A DNA stretch of 64,000 nucleotides from Natranaerofaba carboxydovora (GTDB lineage Bacteria > Bacillota > Natranaerobiia > Natranaerobiales > Natranaerofabaceae), in assembly GCF_022539405.1 (NCBI RefSeq), contig NZ_CP054394.1:312501-376500 (forward strand), written 5' to 3'. The position numbers and the translations under genes were made by a program. A model generated the notes under the pieces. It saw only the letters and a program-made list of their open reading frames with translations. It made no database searches and was not told where the DNA came from. Below are positions 7,821 to 21,206 of this stretch, in pieces. Positions within the stretch are counted from its first letter, which is position 1; every line of letters starts with the position of its first letter.

Positions 7821-7994
7821 TTTCTTTTACCTCCTGACGCTTTCTAGTCTCTTTACTTATAGTTTATGTAGTAGATTGTAAACATGGGAATTAATTTTGT
7901 AATTGTTTAATCACTAATAGTTAAACTCAGGGGTTAGAAAAACATAATATGATTAAAAGTACATTCATTTGTACCCCTGGAGGTGGCAATAAAT

Positions 7995-9098
7995 ATGCAA
8001 AAAGACTTTTCGCCACTAGTTGGAGTATGTATCAATAGCAGTAAAGTTAAAAAGTTAAATCAATCTTTAGAAAGAGGTTCTATAAATTATCTACTAGAGG
8101 CAAATAAAAAATTGAATACAAATCTTTATTTTTTTTCGCTAGTTGACATTAATTTTGAAGAGGATAAAGTTCGTGGTTATATCTATGATGAAACATGCAA
8201 AAAATGGGAAGAAAGGTTTTCCCCTTTGCCTGAAGTGCTATACAAAAAGGGAGGAGTAAAGAAAAAAGAAATAGGAGAGTTTAATTCCCTTATAAACTCG
8301 ATAAATAAGAATAATATTAAGTTAATTAATCCTATGAGAGGATTTAACAAATGGGAGCTTCATAAACATTTCCAAAAAAACAAGAAAATTAGCCCCCATT
8401 TAGAAAAAACAGTGTTATTTCTAAATCCAGAAGATTTACAAGAAATGATTTATGAGGAAGACTCGATCTATCTAAAGGCTGTACGGGGTAGATGTGGTAA
8501 AAATTTAATGAAAATTAAAAAGTTAGATAAGGGTTTTTTGAGTACATTTTTTAGGAAACAACCTAAAAAAATACCGGCAAAAAGTTTTGAAGAACTTTTA
8601 GATGATATTGATAGATTTTTTGGAGGTAGTCCTATTATAGTTCAAAGAACTATTGATTTGTTAAATATTGATAATAAGTTAGTGGATTTAAGGGCAGAAG
8701 TTCATAGAAACTATAATAATGAACTTGAGATTGTTGGCATCCCTGTTAGGATTGGAGAGGCAGAATCCCCAATTACACAGCACTCTAAAAGTTATACCTT
8801 TGATAATTTTTTTCGTAATACTATAGGTTTGTCTGATACACAAATAAATGAATTATATATGGTGGTTGAGAATTTGTTATACGAAGTATATAAGAGTGTA
8901 GAAGACTATTACGGAAATTGTGGTGAAATAGGTATTGATATTGGGGTGGACAAAAATTTACAAGTAAAATTAATTGAATGTAATTCTCAACCTACCAAAA
9001 TATCTCTAAAAGATGCTTACGGGGAAGAGGCTGTTAAAAAGGGGTATGAAAAAATTTTAGAGTATGCTTGCTTTTTAGCGTCTCCGAAAACGATCTAG
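7995..9098 (+). CDS. YheC/YheD-family ATP-grasp protein
   Basis: A 367-aa member of the YheC/YheD endospore coat-associated ATP-grasp family. Marks are an N-terminal VGVCINSSKV, YFFSLVDINFEEDKVRGYIYDE, the PEVLYKKGG segment, a mid ILV-type FGGSPIIVQRTIDLL, DLRAEVHRN, and the C-terminal metal-binding CGEIGIDIGVDKNLQVKLIECNSQP. Bacillus relatives are linked to the spore coat; ATP-grasp folds usually ligate a carboxylate to an amine, but the substrate is unknown. ATG 7995 is preferred over GTG 7983, which overlaps the GGAGG. Its 3' end overlaps the convergent SET gene by 24 bp. Confidence 0.85.
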   Translation: MQKDFSPLVGVCINSSKVKKLNQSLERGSINYLLEANKKLNTNLYFFSLVDINFEEDKVRGYIYDETCKKWEERFSPLPEVLYKKGGVKKKEIGEFNSLINSINKNNIKLINPMRGFNKWELHKHFQKNKKISPHLEKTVLFLNPEDLQEMIYEEDSIYLKAVRGRCGKNLMKIKKLDKGFLSTFFRKQPKKIPAKSFEELLDDIDRFFGGSPIIVQRTIDLLNIDNKLVDLRAEVHRNYNNELEIVGIPVRIGEAESPITQHSKSYTFDNFFRNTIGLSDTQINELYMVVENLLYEVYKSVEDYYGNCGEIGIDIGVDKNLQVKLIECNSQPTKISLKDAYGEEAVKKGYEKILEYACFLASPKTI

Positions 9099-9566
9099 TT
9101 TAGAGGCATTATCAATTTTTTCTTTTATTAGATAGACAATATGATCATTCAAATAATGTGAAGCTAGGATATTAACAGGTGTCCACCATGCTCCCCCTAT
9201 ATAACTTATACACTCGGGTTTATTGCAATTGCAAACAAAGGGGCTTGACATATCCCATTCAGTAGAAGGGTAGAAGAAGTTTAATTCTTCCCTTGAATCA
9301 ATGTTCTTAAGAGCATAAACTGCCCCTTTTTTAGTATCTATAATAAGGTTTGGATCACAACTATGGTTTAAAAGACTAAAAAAAGAGTCGGCTAATATAT
9401 GTTGGTTAATTCCAACTTGTACCGTCTGGTAGGTTTGTTCTCTTATGGTGCAAGTAGGATCAAATGTTAACAGTATTGTACCGGGCAAAATTTTTTTGGT
9501 TGCTCTAAGACAGCTCCCTAGTGCACCTAATGACTTCTCATACAAGGTATTTCCTCTCCCTTTCAA
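9075..9566 (-). CDS. SET-domain protein lysine methyltransferase-like
   Basis: A 163-aa SET-domain protein with all core signatures: an N-terminal GALGSCLRATKKILPG, the pseudoknot NHSCDPN (residues 67-73), EELNFFY (93-99), and a post-SET cysteine cluster CNCNKPEC (112-119). SET proteins transfer methyl from S-adenosylmethionine to lysine. Its TTG start overlaps the TGA of the upstream YheC-like gene (TTGA), which indicates translational coupling, so the two products probably act together. Its target is unknown; spore-coat protein is an inference from context. SET proteins are uncommon in Firmicutes outside a few groups. Confidence 0.85.
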   Translation of the reverse strand: MKGRGNTLYEKSLGALGSCLRATKKILPGTILLTFDPTCTIREQTYQTVQVGINQHILADSFFSLLNHSCDPNLIIDTKKGAVYALKNIDSREELNFFYPSTEWDMSSPFVCNCNKPECISYIGGAWWTPVNILASHYLNDHIVYLIKEKIDNASKLDRFRRR

Positions 9567-10933
9567 TTATCATTTGTCTCCCATAAAAACTTTCCATATT
9601 TTAATGGATTTGAAAAAGACCTATAAACAGACTCATCATCAGAAGCAAGATATAATGTGTCCTTGCCTGGTTTGGCATTACACTCAATAAACCATATATT
9701 CAAATCCTTATCTAAAGCAAAATCTATCCCAATCTCTCCAAAGGGTCCATATATATCCTCGATATACTTAAAGGTTGTTAAGAGAAAAGTTTCGATATTT
9801 TCTATGGTTTTATCAACCCTTGTCTTAGAATAACTAAAGTGATCTATTAAAAAGGAGTCTAAAGGATAAACTGACCCTCCCGCTCTAGTGCTAGTGACCG
9901 GACTATTTGTTTCCCCTATACGAGCAAAAATCGGGCCTAATTCTAATTCGTTTTTGCCGTTTCTTTGAACTTCTGCACGCATATCCACATTACAGTAGTC
10001 ATTTACTTGTAATACATTTATTGCAGTCTGAATTATTATTCTACTGCCTTCAAACATTTTGTTAATTTCGTTTTGTAAATCATCTACAGAACTAAAATTT
10101 TTGGTAAGTATTTCTTCCTTAAAATAGCTTAATTCATAATTATTGCTAGAAAGTTTCGTTACCCTTGCGACACCAGTACTATTGTTGCTAGTGCAATTTT
10201 TAATAAAAATACAATTATGTGATTGAAGCATGGTTTGTAAGTCCTGGTGGTTATTATATAAGGTGGTCTTTGGGAGATAAGATGACATTTTGGTATACTG
10301 GGATAAATTTTTAAAAACATCCCATTTATCAAAGAAGTAGCTAGAATTTATTTTTTGTAAGTTTGAATTTTCTTCAAGTTCTTTTCTAATATCTTGGGAT
10401 AGTTTCTTTTGTGATTTAAGTGTTCCCCCGCCCCGATCATACAAAATGTCTGGGTAAGGAAAAATTTTCTCTTCAAATCTATTAGTTTCCTCATTATAGT
10501 AAGTGCCCCTAATTTTTTTGCCGGAAAAATCCATATCCTTAATCGAGAAAAAGTATAGGACAGCATTTGATTCTTTATTGGCCTTTGCCATCTCTAGTAT
10601 TCTAAAGTGGGGGTGTTGTTTTTTTGCTTTTCTTACACGTCCATTACTGACAAAAACACCGATTACTGGACCTATACTAAGCTTGTTATTTTTAACCATT
10701 AAATTGGTTTGTATTCTGTTTGAAAGTCCCATTTGTTTTGCAATTTTATTTGGAATCCCTATAACATTTTCGGTATTGTTTTCATAACATGTAACTTTTG
10801 TTTTTTGGGTACTAACTTTTAATACTTTAGGATTATTGTTATCTAGAAGTTTTTTAATCTTTTTTGGAGCGGTTATACTTATCGAAGAATTATTGAAAGT
10901 ATTAATAATGACAGGAATAGATGTTTTTTTCAT
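9563..10933 (-). CDS. YheC-like ATP-grasp protein with N-terminal extension
   Basis: A 456-aa YheC/YheD-family protein. Residues 1 to about 90 form an extra beta-rich domain (VIGIPNKIAKQMGLSNR) seen in YheC-type members; the ATP-grasp part then follows with PVIGVFVSNGRVR, FPYPDILYDRGGG, SRIIIQTAINVLQ, DMRAEVQRNGKNELEL and FGEIGIDFALDKDLNIWFIECNAKPG. The ATG at 10933 is chosen because AAGGAG lies nine bases upstream; the earlier GTG overlaps that site. It is coupled to the downstream SET gene and has the same direction as the third paralogue at 11014. Confidence 0.85.
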   Translation of the reverse strand: MKKTSIPVIINTFNNSSISITAPKKIKKLLDNNNPKVLKVSTQKTKVTCYENNTENVIGIPNKIAKQMGLSNRIQTNLMVKNNKLSIGPVIGVFVSNGRVRKAKKQHPHFRILEMAKANKESNAVLYFFSIKDMDFSGKKIRGTYYNEETNRFEEKIFPYPDILYDRGGGTLKSQKKLSQDIRKELEENSNLQKINSSYFFDKWDVFKNLSQYTKMSSYLPKTTLYNNHQDLQTMLQSHNCIFIKNCTSNNSTGVARVTKLSSNNYELSYFKEEILTKNFSSVDDLQNEINKMFEGSRIIIQTAINVLQVNDYCNVDMRAEVQRNGKNELELGPIFARIGETNSPVTSTRAGGSVYPLDSFLIDHFSYSKTRVDKTIENIETFLLTTFKYIEDIYGPFGEIGIDFALDKDLNIWFIECNAKPGKDTLYLASDDESVYRSFSNPLKYGKFLWETNDN

Positions 10934-11013
10934 AAGTCTAATCTCCTTCACGGAATATATTTTGATAGTAATAATTTATTCTGAAGTAAACTCATTGTGT
11001 GTTTTTTGGGGAT

Positions 11014-12144
11014 TTAATAGTGATATAAAAAACGGGCATAATCAAATATAGCCTGAAATTGAGGGTGCACTCCCTGGCAATCGTCAAGACCTTCCACTAA
11101 GTCTTTGTCAGGCTTTGTATTTACTTCTAAAAACCACAGCTTCCCATTAATATCTACTGCTATATCTAAGCCTAACTCCCCGAATGAACAAAACTCTTTT
11201 TCAATATGGTATGCTATTTTTACTGCAGTGTTTGATACATCTTTTGGTGTTGGAATGTTAACATTAGATTGACTTAACAACTCAGGATAAATATTCGAGT
11301 AAAAATTGCATTCACTTCCGACAGAATAATTAGTAATTGTCTGGTTTTCTTTAGCCGCGATCCTAGCATAACTGTTAATAGCTTGCCATTTTCCTTGACT
11401 ATCCTTTATAAGCAAAATTCGGATATCAAAAGGGCGGTTTTTATAATTAAGTAGTCTTATTCCCTGCTGGACAAGGAAACTTCCCCCAGAATTATTATCC
11501 ATGAATTCTTCTACAATTTTTTTCAATTCTTGTATATTACCTATCTCATTCTCTAGTAATCCATTAGAAAATGTAGCAACTTTGTATGAACTACTTGAAC
11601 CGGTCTTTTCAATGGACATTACTTCTTTGCCTCTTTTGCCATAAAAGGATTTAATAAAAATAAATTTATAACTTCTTAGCATGATTAAGACATCGTTAAA
11701 GTTTTGATAGCGAATTGTAACAGGTAGATATTTTGCTACAAAGTCATGTGATAGTAGATACTTATATGTGTTCCATTTGCCGATATAATCTCTGCTATTT
11801 ATAGTCTTAATCTTTAACTTATCTCTGAACTTTGTACGAATTTTTGACACTGCTTCTTTTTCACTTTCTGAAAATCCTGAACCACGATCATAAATAACAT
11901 CTGGAAAAGAAAACCAACGATAACACCATTCATTTGAGTCTAAATCAAAAGTTAGTCCTTTTATTTTCTTGTGTTCCCAGTCAATACTGTCTATCGAGAA
12001 CAGATAACAAACAAAGTTGTTAGCGTGACCTGCTAAGATATGATCTAGATCAGTTGTGGAATTATCAACAGAAAGACGTGCTGGTTTTACAAAGATGCCT
12101 AAAACCGGATTTTCATTTTTAGAATCTTTATTTTTGACCTTCAA
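11014..12144 (-). CDS. YheC/YheD-family ATP-grasp protein (third paralogue)
   Basis: A 376-aa family member lacking the N-terminal extension of its neighbour. Seen: PVLGIFVKPARLS, FPDVIYDRGSG, GSFLVQQGIRLLN, FDIRILLIKDSQGKW, and the C-terminal FGELGLDIAVDINGKLWFLEVNTKPD. It starts at TTG with GGAG nine bases upstream. It lies 80 bp ahead of the YheC-like gene and is probably co-transcribed with it. A remnant of the MITE family sits in its leader. The substrate is unknown. Confidence 0.83.
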   Translation of the reverse strand: MKVKNKDSKNENPVLGIFVKPARLSVDNSTTDLDHILAGHANNFVCYLFSIDSIDWEHKKIKGLTFDLDSNEWCYRWFSFPDVIYDRGSGFSESEKEAVSKIRTKFRDKLKIKTINSRDYIGKWNTYKYLLSHDFVAKYLPVTIRYQNFNDVLIMLRSYKFIFIKSFYGKRGKEVMSIEKTGSSSSYKVATFSNGLLENEIGNIQELKKIVEEFMDNNSGGSFLVQQGIRLLNYKNRPFDIRILLIKDSQGKWQAINSYARIAAKENQTITNYSVGSECNFYSNIYPELLSQSNVNIPTPKDVSNTAVKIAYHIEKEFCSFGELGLDIAVDINGKLWFLEVNTKPDKDLVEGLDDCQGVHPQFQAIFDYARFLYHY

Positions 12145-12397: not shown

Positions 12398-13321
12398 TTA
12401 AATAGTTAGCTTTTTTTCCAAGTCAAAGGCAGCTGTTGCACCGTCTGACATGGCCGTTACTACCTGGCGAAGGGTTTTTTGCCTTACATCTCCTACAGCA
12501 TAAACTCCGTTCACGTTTGTTCTCATCTCCTCATCAGTAAGGATATAGCCGTTATCATCTAAATTCACTTTTCCTTCCAAAAATTCTGTATTTGGATTAA
12601 CTCCCACGTAAATAAATACACCGTTACACGAAAGTTCTTGTTGTTCCTGGGTTTTTACATTTTCTAAAAGAACATTTTCTACTAGTGCATTCCCTTTAAT
12701 TTCTTTGATTACTGTATCAAGTTTGACTTCGATTTGTTCGTTGCTAAAGACTTTTTCTTGAAGGTATTTTACCCCTCTAAGCTGGTCTCTTCTATGTACA
12801 AGGGTCACTTTTTTGGCAAAACGGGTTAAGAAAAGTGCCTCTTCTAAAGCAGAATCTCCGCCTCCGACTACTACAACTTCTTTATCTTTAAAAAAGGCAC
12901 CGTCGCAAGTTGCGCAGTAAGAAACTCCTCTTCCTGTAAATACCTGCTCACCTGGAACTTTAAGCTCTCTTGGGCTTGCTCCGGTTGCGACCACAATACC
13001 TTTTGCAGTGTAATTTTCTCCACTTTCTAGCATGACTTCTTTGAGGTTTCCGGATAAGTTAAGGTCTTTTACTGTTCCCATTTTTAGATGAGCACCGAAT
13101 TTTTTTGCTTGTTCGTCTAATTTTTTGGCCAAGTCTGGGCCAGTAGTTCCTTCGGGAAAGCCCGGGTAATTATCTACATGTTGAGTGTTGATAAGCTGAC
13201 CGCCAGGTGCCATCTTCTCAATTAGAAGAACATTCATCCGTGCCCTGGCACCATAAAGGGCTGCTACAAGTCCTCCGGGACCTCCGCCGATTATTATCAT
13301 ATCATAATTTTGATTTTCCAC
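12398..13321 (-). CDS. trxB: Thioredoxin reductase
   Basis: A 307-aa FAD/NADPH disulfide reductase with GGGPGGLVAALYGARA (FAD), the redox-active CATCDG, GGGDSALEEA (NADPH), and the C-terminal GVYAVGDVR. The usual length supports the GTG start at 13321, preceded by AAGGGGG; the longer reading upstream has no ribosome-binding site. It sits just behind an ArsR regulator, 64 bp apart with a repeat end between them, and near a selenocysteine glutaredoxin-like gene, so the area may serve thiol homeostasis. Confidence 0.95.
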   Translation of the reverse strand: MENQNYDMIIIGGGPGGLVAALYGARARMNVLLIEKMAPGGQLINTQHVDNYPGFPEGTTGPDLAKKLDEQAKKFGAHLKMGTVKDLNLSGNLKEVMLESGENYTAKGIVVATGASPRELKVPGEQVFTGRGVSYCATCDGAFFKDKEVVVVGGGDSALEEALFLTRFAKKVTLVHRRDQLRGVKYLQEKVFSNEQIEVKLDTVIKEIKGNALVENVLLENVKTQEQQELSCNGVFIYVGVNPNTEFLEGKVNLDDNGYILTDEEMRTNVNGVYAVGDVRQKTLRQVVTAMSDGATAAFDLEKKLTI

Positions 13322-13362
13322 TAAAAAAACCCCCTTATAAATAGTCATATTTATATTTAATA

Positions 13363-13384
13363 TGATTCTGGTGCAAAAAGTCAT
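13363..13384. repeat. Single MITE end (copy E)
   Basis: TGATTCTGGTGCAAAAAGTC is an almost exact copy of the terminal inverted repeat of the full elements. It is placed between the arsR stop and the trxB leader; no partner end is nearby. Confidence 0.6.
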
Positions 13385-13385
13385 C

Positions 13386-13742
13386 TTATTTATCAGTTTC
13401 ACCTTTGTTGCTTCTATCTTCCTCTAATATTTCTTTTGAACTATTTACTAAATCAGATAAGCGTTCTAACATAACCTCTCTCATGATATCACATGCCTCA
13501 AGCACCCTTGGATTACACAACTCAAAATATACATTTAGGCCTTCTTTTCTTGTGCAAACAAGGCCTTTATCTCTTAATATTGACAAATGTTGAGAAGTAT
13601 TAGCTCTACTTGTTCCTAGTTCATTTGCTATCTCATCAACATGTTTTTCGCCTTCTTTTAAAAGATATATAATTTCTATTCTTTTAGCATTTGATAACAC
13701 TTTACACATATCAGCATGAAGTTCGTAAAGCTTTTTTTTCAT
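13386..13742 (-). CDS. ArsR/SmtB-family repressor
   Basis: A 118-aa winged-helix regulator: HADMCKVLSNAKRIEIIYLL, the recognition region ELGTSRANTSQHLSILRDKG, then a beta wing and C-terminal helix. Cysteines at LVCTRK and in ELCNPRVLEACD could form a thiol or metal sensor; the family includes metal, arsenic and sulfide/redox sensors. It precedes trxB in the same direction, so it probably controls thioredoxin reductase and itself. The inducer is inferred only. Confidence 0.87.
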   Translation of the reverse strand: MKKKLYELHADMCKVLSNAKRIEIIYLLKEGEKHVDEIANELGTSRANTSQHLSILRDKGLVCTRKEGLNVYFELCNPRVLEACDIMREVMLERLSDLVNSSKEILEEDRSNKGETDK

Positions 13743-14980: not shown

Positions 14981-15024
14981 AAAAATTAAATAAAAACAAC
15001 AATAATTTACAAGGGGGAAATTTT

Positions 15025-15258
15025 ATGTCTGAAGAAGTTCGTGTTTTTACAAGTCCCGGTTGAGGATTTTGTGACCCAGTGAAGGAGTTACTTTCACAGG
15101 AAAATGTTAGTTTTGAAGAGGTTGACGTTTCTCAAAATCCGGATGCAGTTCAAGAGCTAGTTGAGTTAACTGGTGAAATGAAGGTTCCTGTAGTTAGAAA
15201 AGGAGATAACTTTGTAATAGGTGCAGATAAGGAGAAAATTAAAGAGTTGGTTACTTAA
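15025..15258 (+). CDS. Selenocysteine-containing glutaredoxin-like protein (in-frame UGA)
   Basis: The 77-residue frame starts at ATG 15025 behind AGGGGGAA and contains one in-frame TGA at codon 13 (15061-15063). Around it the protein reads VFTSPG-Sec-GFCDPVKELL, so Sec replaces the first Cys of the glutaredoxin CxxC motif and the resolving Cys16 is kept. The rest is an ordinary glutaredoxin fold: SFEEVDVSQNP, the cis-Pro KVPVV (TVP-like), and a terminal helix. A stem-loop follows the UGA at the right distance for a bacterial SECIS, and a terminator follows the TAA. Sec glutaredoxins are known in some clostridia. It requires SelB/tRNA-Sec elsewhere. Confidence 0.88.
15064..15097 (+). promoter_or_regulatory. 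Candidate bacterial SECIS element
   Basis: GTGAAG (15079-15084) pairs with CTTTCAC (15091-15097), with one bulge, around the loop GAGTTA. The stem begins 16 nt after the UGA, inside the coding sequence, and the loop begins with G as SelB-bound bacterial SECIS loops usually do. Confidence 0.6.
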
Positions 15259-15296
15259 AAGCAAATAGTTTATCTCAAAAAGTATATTTATATTAA

Positions 15297-15327
15297 AATA
15301 GGGGTTATGACTACCCCTATTTTTTAG
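15297..15327 (+). terminator. Terminator of the selenoprotein gene
   Basis: AATAGGGG and CCCCTATT form an 8-bp stem around a 9-nt loop, followed by TTTTTAG. Confidence 0.8.
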
Positions 15328-19122: not shown

Positions 19123-19475
19123 TTATGAATTAACGGCCTCTTTTTCCTGTTCTTGATAACTACCATGTACTTTGCCATAACTAATGGCATTTTTAGGGCA
19201 AACTTTTTGGCAATCATAACAAACAAGACATTCTTTATTATCTATCACCCTTTGTTTTGTATCGTTATACTTAGAAATGGCCTGGTTAGGACATACTTTT
19301 TCACATAAACTACAACCATTGCAGCTGCTGCGATCAATTTTCATGCCAAATGGTGAAATACGAGAGGTTATATTTAAAATGGCCCCATGAGGACAAATCC
19401 TATGCCAAAAATCTTCAGTGAAGAAAAATGATATGCCTACTCCTATGATAACAAGATATAAAATTACAGTACTAG
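19123..19475 (-). pseudogene. NapH/CcoG-like polyferredoxin, 5' end lost to IS element
   Basis: About 115 native residues remain: one transmembrane helix (ILYLVIIGVGISFFF), the CPHGAI motif, then two ferredoxin clusters CNGCSLCEKVCP and CLVCYDCQKVCP. NapH-type proteins have several more N-terminal membrane helices and feed electrons to periplasmic reductases. Here the reading frame runs into the left end of the IS200/IS605 element, so the N terminus is missing and the apparent ATG at 19563 lies in IS sequence. A sulfite-reductase remnant lies on the other side. Confidence 0.75.
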
Positions 19476-19571
19476 GGCGAAAAGCCCACGGTTTTAAATC
19501 GTGGGATGAAAGCCCATTTTTTTTATAAATTATCGTTGCAGCACAAAGAAAAAACATATACACTAGAGTTT

Positions 19572-19766
19572 ATGAAACAAGAATATAGAAGAACTAAAAC
19601 AACCGCATCATTAATCAACTATCATTTTGTTTTCTGCCCAAGATATCGAAGAAAGATATTTTCAAATCAAAAGGTAGAAGAGCGATTTAAAGAAATTGTC
19701 CATGAAGTAAGTATCGAACAGGAAATAGAAGTAAAGTATGTCGAAGAACAAAAAACAAGAGGGTGA
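19572..19766 (+). pseudogene. tnpA: TnpA (Y1 transposase) N-terminal fragment
   Basis: 64 residues begin with the typical TnpA N terminus (NYHFVFCPRYRRKIF, RFKEIVHEVS) but switch at about residue 55 to sequence just ahead of tnpB. The HUH histidines and catalytic tyrosine of the roughly 135-aa Y1 transposase are absent, so it is inactive. The loss looks like an internal deletion inside the element. Confidence 0.85.
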
Positions 19767-19770
19767 ACTC

Positions 19771-20820
19771 ATGGAAAAAACAGCGAAGATCAAACTACTA
19801 CCAACAAAAAAGCAAGAAAAAAACCTAATTGATATATCAAAAGAATACATAAAAACCGTCAATACCCTGGTATCTAAAATGGTACAAGCTAAAAAAGCAT
19901 TAAATCTATCATCAAAAGATGTCCAAGTCCCGATGCCAAGTGCCGTCAAAAATCAAGCGATCCGTGATGCAAAAAGTGTTTATCGTAGATCCAAAAAATT
20001 AAAAAGAGTCCCTATTCTAAAAAAGCCCGTCTGTATATGGAACAATCAAAACTACAAAATCAAAGACAACATCATTGAATTCCCAGTATGTATCAATGCT
20101 AAATCAAAACGTATAGCCATAAAAGCCGTATTAACCGAATATCAAAAAGAGCTACTTAAAAACAAACTGGGCACACTGCGCATCACAAAGAAATCAAACA
20201 AGTGGATTGCCCAAATATGTGTAACAGTACCAGACCCTAAACCTAAAGAAACAGATATAATAATGGGTGTAGACTTAGGCCTAAAATCTCCAGCAGTCGC
20301 AGTAACAAGTACCGGCAAAACAAAATTCACCGGTAACGGCAGACAAAACAAATATATCCGCAGAAAATTCAAAACAAAACGACGTAAATTAGGAAAAGCA
20401 AAAAAATTAAATGCCATCAAAAACCTCAACGACAAAGAACAGCGCTGGATGAAAGACCAGGACCATAAAATCAGCCGTAAAGTGGTTGACTTTGCAATAG
20501 ATAATAAAGTTTCCACCATTAGATTAGAAAAACTATCTAATATCAGAACCACGGCAAGAACAAGCCGTAAAAACGAAAAGAACCTTCATGCATGGTCATT
20601 CTATCGTCTAGCATCATACATTGAGTACAAAGCCAAGTTAGCAGGCATAGCAGTAGAATTTGTAAACCCTAAATACACCAGTCAAACATGTCCTGTATGT
20701 AAAATACTAAACCAAGCAAAAGATAGAAAATATCAATGCACCTGCGGTTTTAGTTCGCACCGAGACCGGGTAGCAGGGATGAATATCATCCATGCACCTG
20801 TGATAGATGGAGCAGCTTAA
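19771..20820 (+). CDS. tnpB: TnpB RNA-guided endonuclease of IS605 family
   Basis: A 349-aa TnpB with all catalytic elements: an N-terminal MEKTAKIKLLPTKKQ, RuvC-I GVDLGLKSPAVAV (Asp), RuvC-II IRLEKLSNI (Glu), a zinc ribbon CPVC...CTCG near residue 305, and RuvC-III SSHRDRVAGMNI (Asp). TnpB proteins are guided by an RNA from the element's right end and cut DNA beside the element's target motif. ATG 19771 is chosen behind GAGGGTG; it overlaps nothing after the broken tnpA. No disabling change is visible. Confidence 0.92.
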   Translation: MEKTAKIKLLPTKKQEKNLIDISKEYIKTVNTLVSKMVQAKKALNLSSKDVQVPMPSAVKNQAIRDAKSVYRRSKKLKRVPILKKPVCIWNNQNYKIKDNIIEFPVCINAKSKRIAIKAVLTEYQKELLKNKLGTLRITKKSNKWIAQICVTVPDPKPKETDIIMGVDLGLKSPAVAVTSTGKTKFTGNGRQNKYIRRKFKTKRRKLGKAKKLNAIKNLNDKEQRWMKDQDHKISRKVVDFAIDNKVSTIRLEKLSNIRTTARTSRKNEKNLHAWSFYRLASYIEYKAKLAGIAVEFVNPKYTSQTCPVCKILNQAKDRKYQCTCGFSSHRDRVAGMNIIHAPVIDGAA

Positions 20821-20968
20821 GCTGCAGTCTATCAGCCCATACTGCTATATGCACTGGTATGGGAAGGGTACTGGCATACCCTTAGCTTGGGAGCTGTCCA
20901 AAGCGGAAATGGATTGAGGACGGTAAGCTACCCAAGAATCCCACGCATTTATGCGTGTTGGAGTGTCA
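20821..20968 (+). ncRNA. Putative omega RNA (right-end RNA) of TnpB
   Basis: The 148 bp from the tnpB stop to the right end contain several potential stems (for example CCCATAC...GTATGGG and the terminal CACGCATTTATGCGTG). In characterised IS605 elements this region is transcribed as the TnpB guide scaffold and the guide is read from the flank just past the right end. This is inferred from position and structure only. Confidence 0.5.
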
Positions 20969-21185
20969 ATTTTGACTTGTGTTCTGCAATTATGCCCGTA
21001 GCTATAGCCATTAGATATTTGTACTTCAAAGGGATAACGTCCTCAGTGTATACAACTCTATAATAATCACCAATAACATTTTTGAAATCTTCACCTAACT
21101 CTTCTGCAATTTTGAATGCAGGGGGAGTAAACCCCAATTTTTCTTGTGCCTCCTGTTCGGCAATATGTTTCTCTCTTTCACTCAT
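20968..21185 (-). pseudogene. Carboxymuconolactone decarboxylase/AhpD-like protein, 3' end lost to IS
   Basis: The frame starts at ATG 21185 behind GAGGAGGGG and reads KLGFTPPAFKIAEELGEDFKN and PLKYKYLMAIATGIIAEHKSK, an N-terminal half of a CMD-family protein. About 70 native residues remain; it then enters the IS right end and stops at 20949. The C-terminal half of the domain is absent. Its promoter region holds a perfect 20-bp TetR-type palindrome and is shared with the permease operon, so the gene was once part of that regulon. Confidence 0.75.
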
Positions 21186-21206
21186 AATATAACCCCTCCT
21201 CAAAAT

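Follow-up and report, generated by a model that had tools for sequence, protein, structure and literature searches.

Glutaredoxins that contain selenocysteine (Sec) form an established family of selenoproteins (PMC1794560, PMC13188914, PMC7642778). Among the described members, cGrx1 of Clostridium (Alkaliphilus) oremlandii OhILAs (PDB 7c10/7c12) is natively a Sec protein with a U-P-x-C motif (PMC7642778). In Clostridium pasteurianum, the YruB/Cp9 redoxin carries electrons from thioredoxin reductase (TrxR) to a peroxiredoxin within the Cp34-Cp9-Cp20 system (PMC3720550). The window analysed here, i.e., 64,000 nt of the Natranaerofaba carboxydovora genome (contig NZ_CP054394.1, positions 312,501 to 376,500), contains a short glutaredoxin-like reading frame with one in-frame TGA. 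Judging from sequence, the probability that this frame is a functional selenoprotein gene, in which UGA codon 13 is read as Sec, is about 0.93; because the family is already established, the gene would add one member to a known kind. Genes of this kind, in which the catalytic residue is written as UGA, are easily overlooked or shortened by standard gene callers.

The reading frame and its surroundings

The frame (Table 1) starts with ATG, and its sole internal stop, the TGA at codon 13, is followed by 64 sense codons and TAA; with TGA translated as Sec, the product is MSEEVRVFTSPG-U-GFCDPVKELLSQENVSFEEVDVSQNPDAVQELVELTGEMKVPVVRKGDNFVIGADKEKIKELVT. The first-pass annotation had described 78 codons with a lone TGA at the first Cys of a CxxC site (UGFC), a ribosome-binding site and a normal stop, and all of this agrees with the translation and with the homologue column discussed below. 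The terminator that it had also proposed stands in part: a hairpin does run into T's, but the consensus terminator scan left it unflagged, and its role as the terminator of the redoxin ORF is plausible. The claimed glutaredoxin-like identity is far beyond chance, since the Pfam Glutaredoxin model PF00462 matches the protein from end to end (E=4.2e-18, 65.7 bits, cut-off 22.9), and the fold matches as well.

Table 1. Features in and around the glutaredoxin-like gene (window coordinates)
Feature	Position	Strand	Basis or detail
TrxB, NADPH thioredoxin reductase, Cys form (CATC), candidate electron donor	12398..13402	-	TIGR01292 403.8 bits; PF07992
ArsR-family regulator upstream of trxB	13386..13742	-	PF01022 E=4.6e-15
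Ribosome-binding site AGGGGG, 7 nt 5' of ATG	15012..15017	+	sequence
Putative Sec glutaredoxin-like CDS (YruB/Cp9/cGrx1 type)	15025..15258	+	77 aa, Sec = residue 13, stop TAA
UGA codon, putative Sec at first position of UxxC site	15061..15063	+	homologue alignment
Predicted SECIS hairpin GUGAAGG-AGUUA-CUUUCAC	15079..15097	+	energy, recoding and covariation tests; published bacterial model
Probable intrinsic terminator, A+T/G+C hairpin into T run	15295..15325	+	RNA fold -14.9 kcal/mol

The immediate neighbours of the redoxin ORF encode an amidohydrolase and a subtilase. The start of trxB lies 1.6 kb away on the opposite strand, so that the two genes are divergent and belong to separate operons, and no operon joining the window redoxin to trxB or to a peroxiredoxin was found. 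Among the homologue loci examined, no genes beside the window ORF were common to them, and the neighbourhood thus gives no functional clue. Elsewhere in the window (19506-20820, with 19123-19563 and 20949-21203), a transposon of apparent IS605 type, comprising a TnpA-like fragment and a TnpB-like ORF, has as its neighbours a ferredoxin-like ORF and a short AhpD-type-like ORF that ends without its CxxC; the insertion may have truncated these flanking ORFs. The gene of a bacterial SET-domain protein (9075-9566, minus strand; PF00856, E=1.2e-8) has around it three similarly built ATP-grasp-like ORFs (7983-9098, 9563-10951 and 11014-12144).

Evidence for selenocysteine decoding in the host and its relatives

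Alignment of the 134 non-identical homologues from all loci fetched revealed a single column of exchange. Exactly one in-frame TGA, always in the column of the window UGA and with no other stop in the aligned part, is present in 94 homologues, and the other 40 have TGC or TGT there, without exception. Homologues that never align Cys or Sec with the TGA were one of the two findings that the first-pass annotation had named as refuting its reading, and the alignment shows the opposite. A homologue is present in 25 of the 61 genomes of the relatives set (the host and 60 relatives), and in 13, the host among them, a TGA form occurs. Full-length SelA was found in all 13, whereas only Cys forms are present in four genomes without SelA and in one with a weak partial SelA match (association of TGA form with SelA, Fisher p=0.015). 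The remark in the first-pass annotation that Sec glutaredoxins exist in some clostridia was right as to their existence; however, it understated their spread, which covers many Bacillota families and two Chloroflexota.

The closest homologue of the window protein (L012, in genome G001 of the same order) is 54% identical and groups with it with support 99/86; the active-site motifs of this L011/L012 branch are UGFC and UKVC. The tree, built from 126 short sequences, leaves many forks without resolution, and any count of how often Sec was gained or lost is therefore tentative. Nonetheless, one apparent in-place switch can be proposed from gene order: a second Sec homologue of G001 (L036) and its syntenic counterpart with Cys in G002 of the same order (L013) both have an aldehyde ferredoxin oxidoreductase-like gene on one side and, on the other, a gene resembling spore photoproduct lyase and then GAPDH, these neighbours having been named by sequence inspection. 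The two would be orthologues that exchanged Sec and Cys between related genomes.

The stem-loop that the first-pass annotation had placed 16 nt after the UGA lies exactly there, with a 7-bp stem, a G at loop position 2 and a loop 22 nt past the UGA. The published model of the bacterial SECIS has a G in loop position 1-2, a loop of 3-9 nt, a stem of 4-16 bp and a distance of 16-37 nt from the UGA (PMC13188914), and the window hairpin agrees with it on every point. No Rfam SECIS family matches at this site. Dinucleotide shuffling of 71 nt around the hairpin gave an unremarkable fold (z=-0.46); this uninformative control was replaced by synonymous recoding with the protein kept fixed, a fairer test, in which 117 of 5000 recodings of the window gene were as stable as the native hairpin. 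Across the homologues, the median hairpin energy is -8.3 kcal/mol after Sec codons and -2.1 after Cys codons (p=5e-12), and the median z against synonymous recoding is -2.6 and -0.1, respectively. Stem cells are paired in 86% of cases among 80 distinct Sec sequences and in 44% among 40 Cys sequences; none of 1000 shuffles reached the observed stem pairing, but this control leaves sequence relatedness in place, so that the Sec-versus-Cys comparison and the recoding test weigh more.

At the second stem pair (positions 19 and 35, with the UGA codon counted as 0), the Sec sequences have U-A, a compensatory C-G in its place (13 sequences) or, frequently, an unpaired U-C (28 of the 80). SelB may recognise this recurrent unpaired U, which would then resemble the bulged U in the fdhF SECIS of E. 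coli. In several deviant Sec genes (e.g., L130, L159, L174 and L178), a hairpin is nevertheless formed by a different sequence, in some cases in a shifted register. Conversely, the hairpin motif persists after the Cys codon in a few Cys genes (L064, L075 and L118), which is what recent Sec-to-Cys changes would leave.

The host genome (3.26 Mb) contains selA, selB, selC and selD, the machinery whose absence the first-pass annotation had named as evidence against its reading. The matches are strong for SelA (E=1.9e-153), for SelB (E 1.2e-112), whose gene adjoins that of SelD, and for SelD (E 2.7e-120), whose own gene carries a TGA in frame at an established Sec position (KAG-U-AAK); the tRNA-Sec scores 70 bits and has the anticodon TCA (UCA). 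A PrxU-type peroxiredoxin gene of the host likewise has UGA in frame where Sec is known to occur, so that the window ORF is a third such gene beside it and selD.

It could be supposed that the UGA is a nonsense mutation in a decayed glutaredoxin gene, as the standard code places a stop inside the frame and the neighbouring genes are not conserved. This is very unlikely because of the homologue pattern described above, with its single TGA in one column of 94 genes; the frame is otherwise intact from the ribosome-binding site through the start to the stop, a conserved SECIS lies downstream, and the host has a complete Sec machinery. No greater probability attaches to a UGA read as Cys or Trp through a suppressor tRNA or an altered code. 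The homologues with Cys at this position would suit such a reading, but the host has tRNA-Sec (UCA) together with SelA, SelB and SelD, and conservation of the hairpin is confined to genes with the TGA codon. Moreover, TGA ends 7 of the 29 window ORFs of at least 250 aa and is thus an ordinary stop of long genes, which argues that the genetic code has not been changed genome-wide.

Candidate electron donor and target

If UGA codon 13 is indeed decoded as Sec, SelB and tRNA-Sec (UCA) would do so under the direction of the SECIS hairpin, and the product, by homology, would be a small dithiol-type redoxin in which the attack on a disulfide or selenenyl group of the substrate falls to Sec13 and the resolution to Cys16. 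TrxB, as the only TIGR01292 match above the cut-off in the host genome, would reduce the Sec redoxin, which would in turn deliver electrons to (seleno)disulfides of proteins or of peroxidatic sites. Since the host encodes a single clear TrxB and lacks both MsrA and any GshF match above the cut-off, this route from TrxB through the redoxin to disulfides is the preferred, predicted wiring, and TrxB, which the first-pass annotation had suggested as a partner, is a somewhat probable donor. A link between the redoxin and a flavin reductase is also suggested by analogy with Cp34-Cp9-Cp20 and by the closest homologue gene, which begins 22 nt behind a TrxR-like gene. A TAG interrupts the frame of that TrxR-like gene (L056:10060-10930, minus strand, in G001) at NILD*KVES, and the GGGDSA motif for NADPH is not evident in it; the gene may be defective, or else belong to a type that is independent of pyridine nucleotides.

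With regard to the target, a Sec-MsrA partner of the kind known from C. oremlandii was rejected, as MsrA is absent from the host genome. The best candidate would be the host Sec peroxiredoxin PrxU, by analogy with Cp34-Cp9-Cp20 and with the Sec-Grx/Sec-MsrA pair of C. oremlandii, and even so this assignment is rather unlikely. The PrxU gene (C1:2300006-2300404, minus strand; locus L187:1309-1911) has a UGA at the peroxidatic site (FTFVUPTE) and scores 346 bits against an equivalog cut-off of 270; near its C-terminus, the product reads GEVTPSG, and the resolving Cys motif usual there is not seen. Over 35 genomes, the joint presence of Sec-Grx and a TGA-bearing peroxiredoxin leaned in this direction (9/28 vs 0/7), but not significantly (p=0.15). 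Among the three genomes of the order that were compared, the L011/L012 branch turned up in the two with a UGA-bearing peroxiredoxin, the host (G000) and G001, but not in G002, which lacks one. A peroxide relay with selenium in both carrier and peroxidase (TrxB to Sec redoxin to PrxU), in which the L011/L012 branch would be a PrxU-specific carrier, is doubtful; if true, it would constitute a second "tandem selenocysteine" pathway besides Sec-Grx/Sec-MsrA.

Two other functions have been weighed for the same selenoprotein. It might be of glutathione type, i.e., reduced by a low-molecular-weight thiol (GSH, imported or made, or another) instead of TrxB, as its glutaredoxin fold and name, the PF00462 match and the description of cGrx1 as GSH-reduced (PMC7642778) would allow. 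Yet the protein is nearest to YruB/Cp9-type redoxins, which receive electrons from TrxR (PMC3720550), and a single TrxB lies close by; because a search of the host genome for GshF found no match above the cut-off, the glutathione route is less likely, and we regard it as a minority prospect. It is more improbable still that the protein is a ligand or carrier for metal or for selenium or arsenic species and not a disulfide reductase. Its match to the Uxx-star model just below the cut-off, the metal-binding role suggested for that group (PMC13188914) and the ArsR-type regulator on the nearby trxB would fit such a function, but the resolving Cys is kept (UxxC), the protein groups with the dithiol cGrx1/YruB proteins, and no metal or arsenic genes stand beside the ORF.

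Comparison with described redoxins

For the window protein, the alignment, AlphaFold and Foldseek indicate a thioredoxin fold with a cis-Pro loop, P55 is invariant in the homologues, and the confident AlphaFold model (pLDDT 86.8) resembles solved glutaredoxins and NrdH/Cp9-like redoxins. The family name is approximate, because the protein falls short of two curated cut-offs, that of TIGR02196 (YruB), its best NCBIfam model (69.4 bits, cut-off 88.55), and that of NF041212 (Uxx-star; 63.3 bits, cut-off 66); the close Sec relatives L098 (93.3 bits) and L036 (91.2 bits) exceed the TIGR02196 cut-off. NrdH redoxins have the same fold (4hs1, 4fiw and 1h75) and length, but the window protein is far under their cut-off (47.2 against 85.75 bits), and the neighbours examined include no ribonucleotide reductase gene.

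Uxx-star proteins have Sec at the same site, a glutaredoxin-like fold and a similar length, whereas the window protein keeps the second Cys; against Uxx-star families 1-3 (NF041114, NF041211 and NF047338), it scores far under the cut-offs. The exchange of Sec and Cys at one site, together with the SECIS hairpins left over behind Cys codons, makes this redoxin family suitable for testing what selenium buys a redoxin. YruB/Cp9 redoxins are similar in length (75-80 aa) but have Cys where the window protein would have Sec, and the Cp9 gene of C. pasteurianum shares an operon with TrxR and Prx, unlike the window gene. In sequence and fold, the window protein is like cGrx1, its best PDB match by sequence (E=8.9e-12) and among its best fold matches (7c10: TM 0.87/0.92, 1.3 A, 42% identity); the two differ in that cGrx1 has UPxC where the window protein has UGFC, and in that the cGrx1 partner MsrA has no counterpart in this host.
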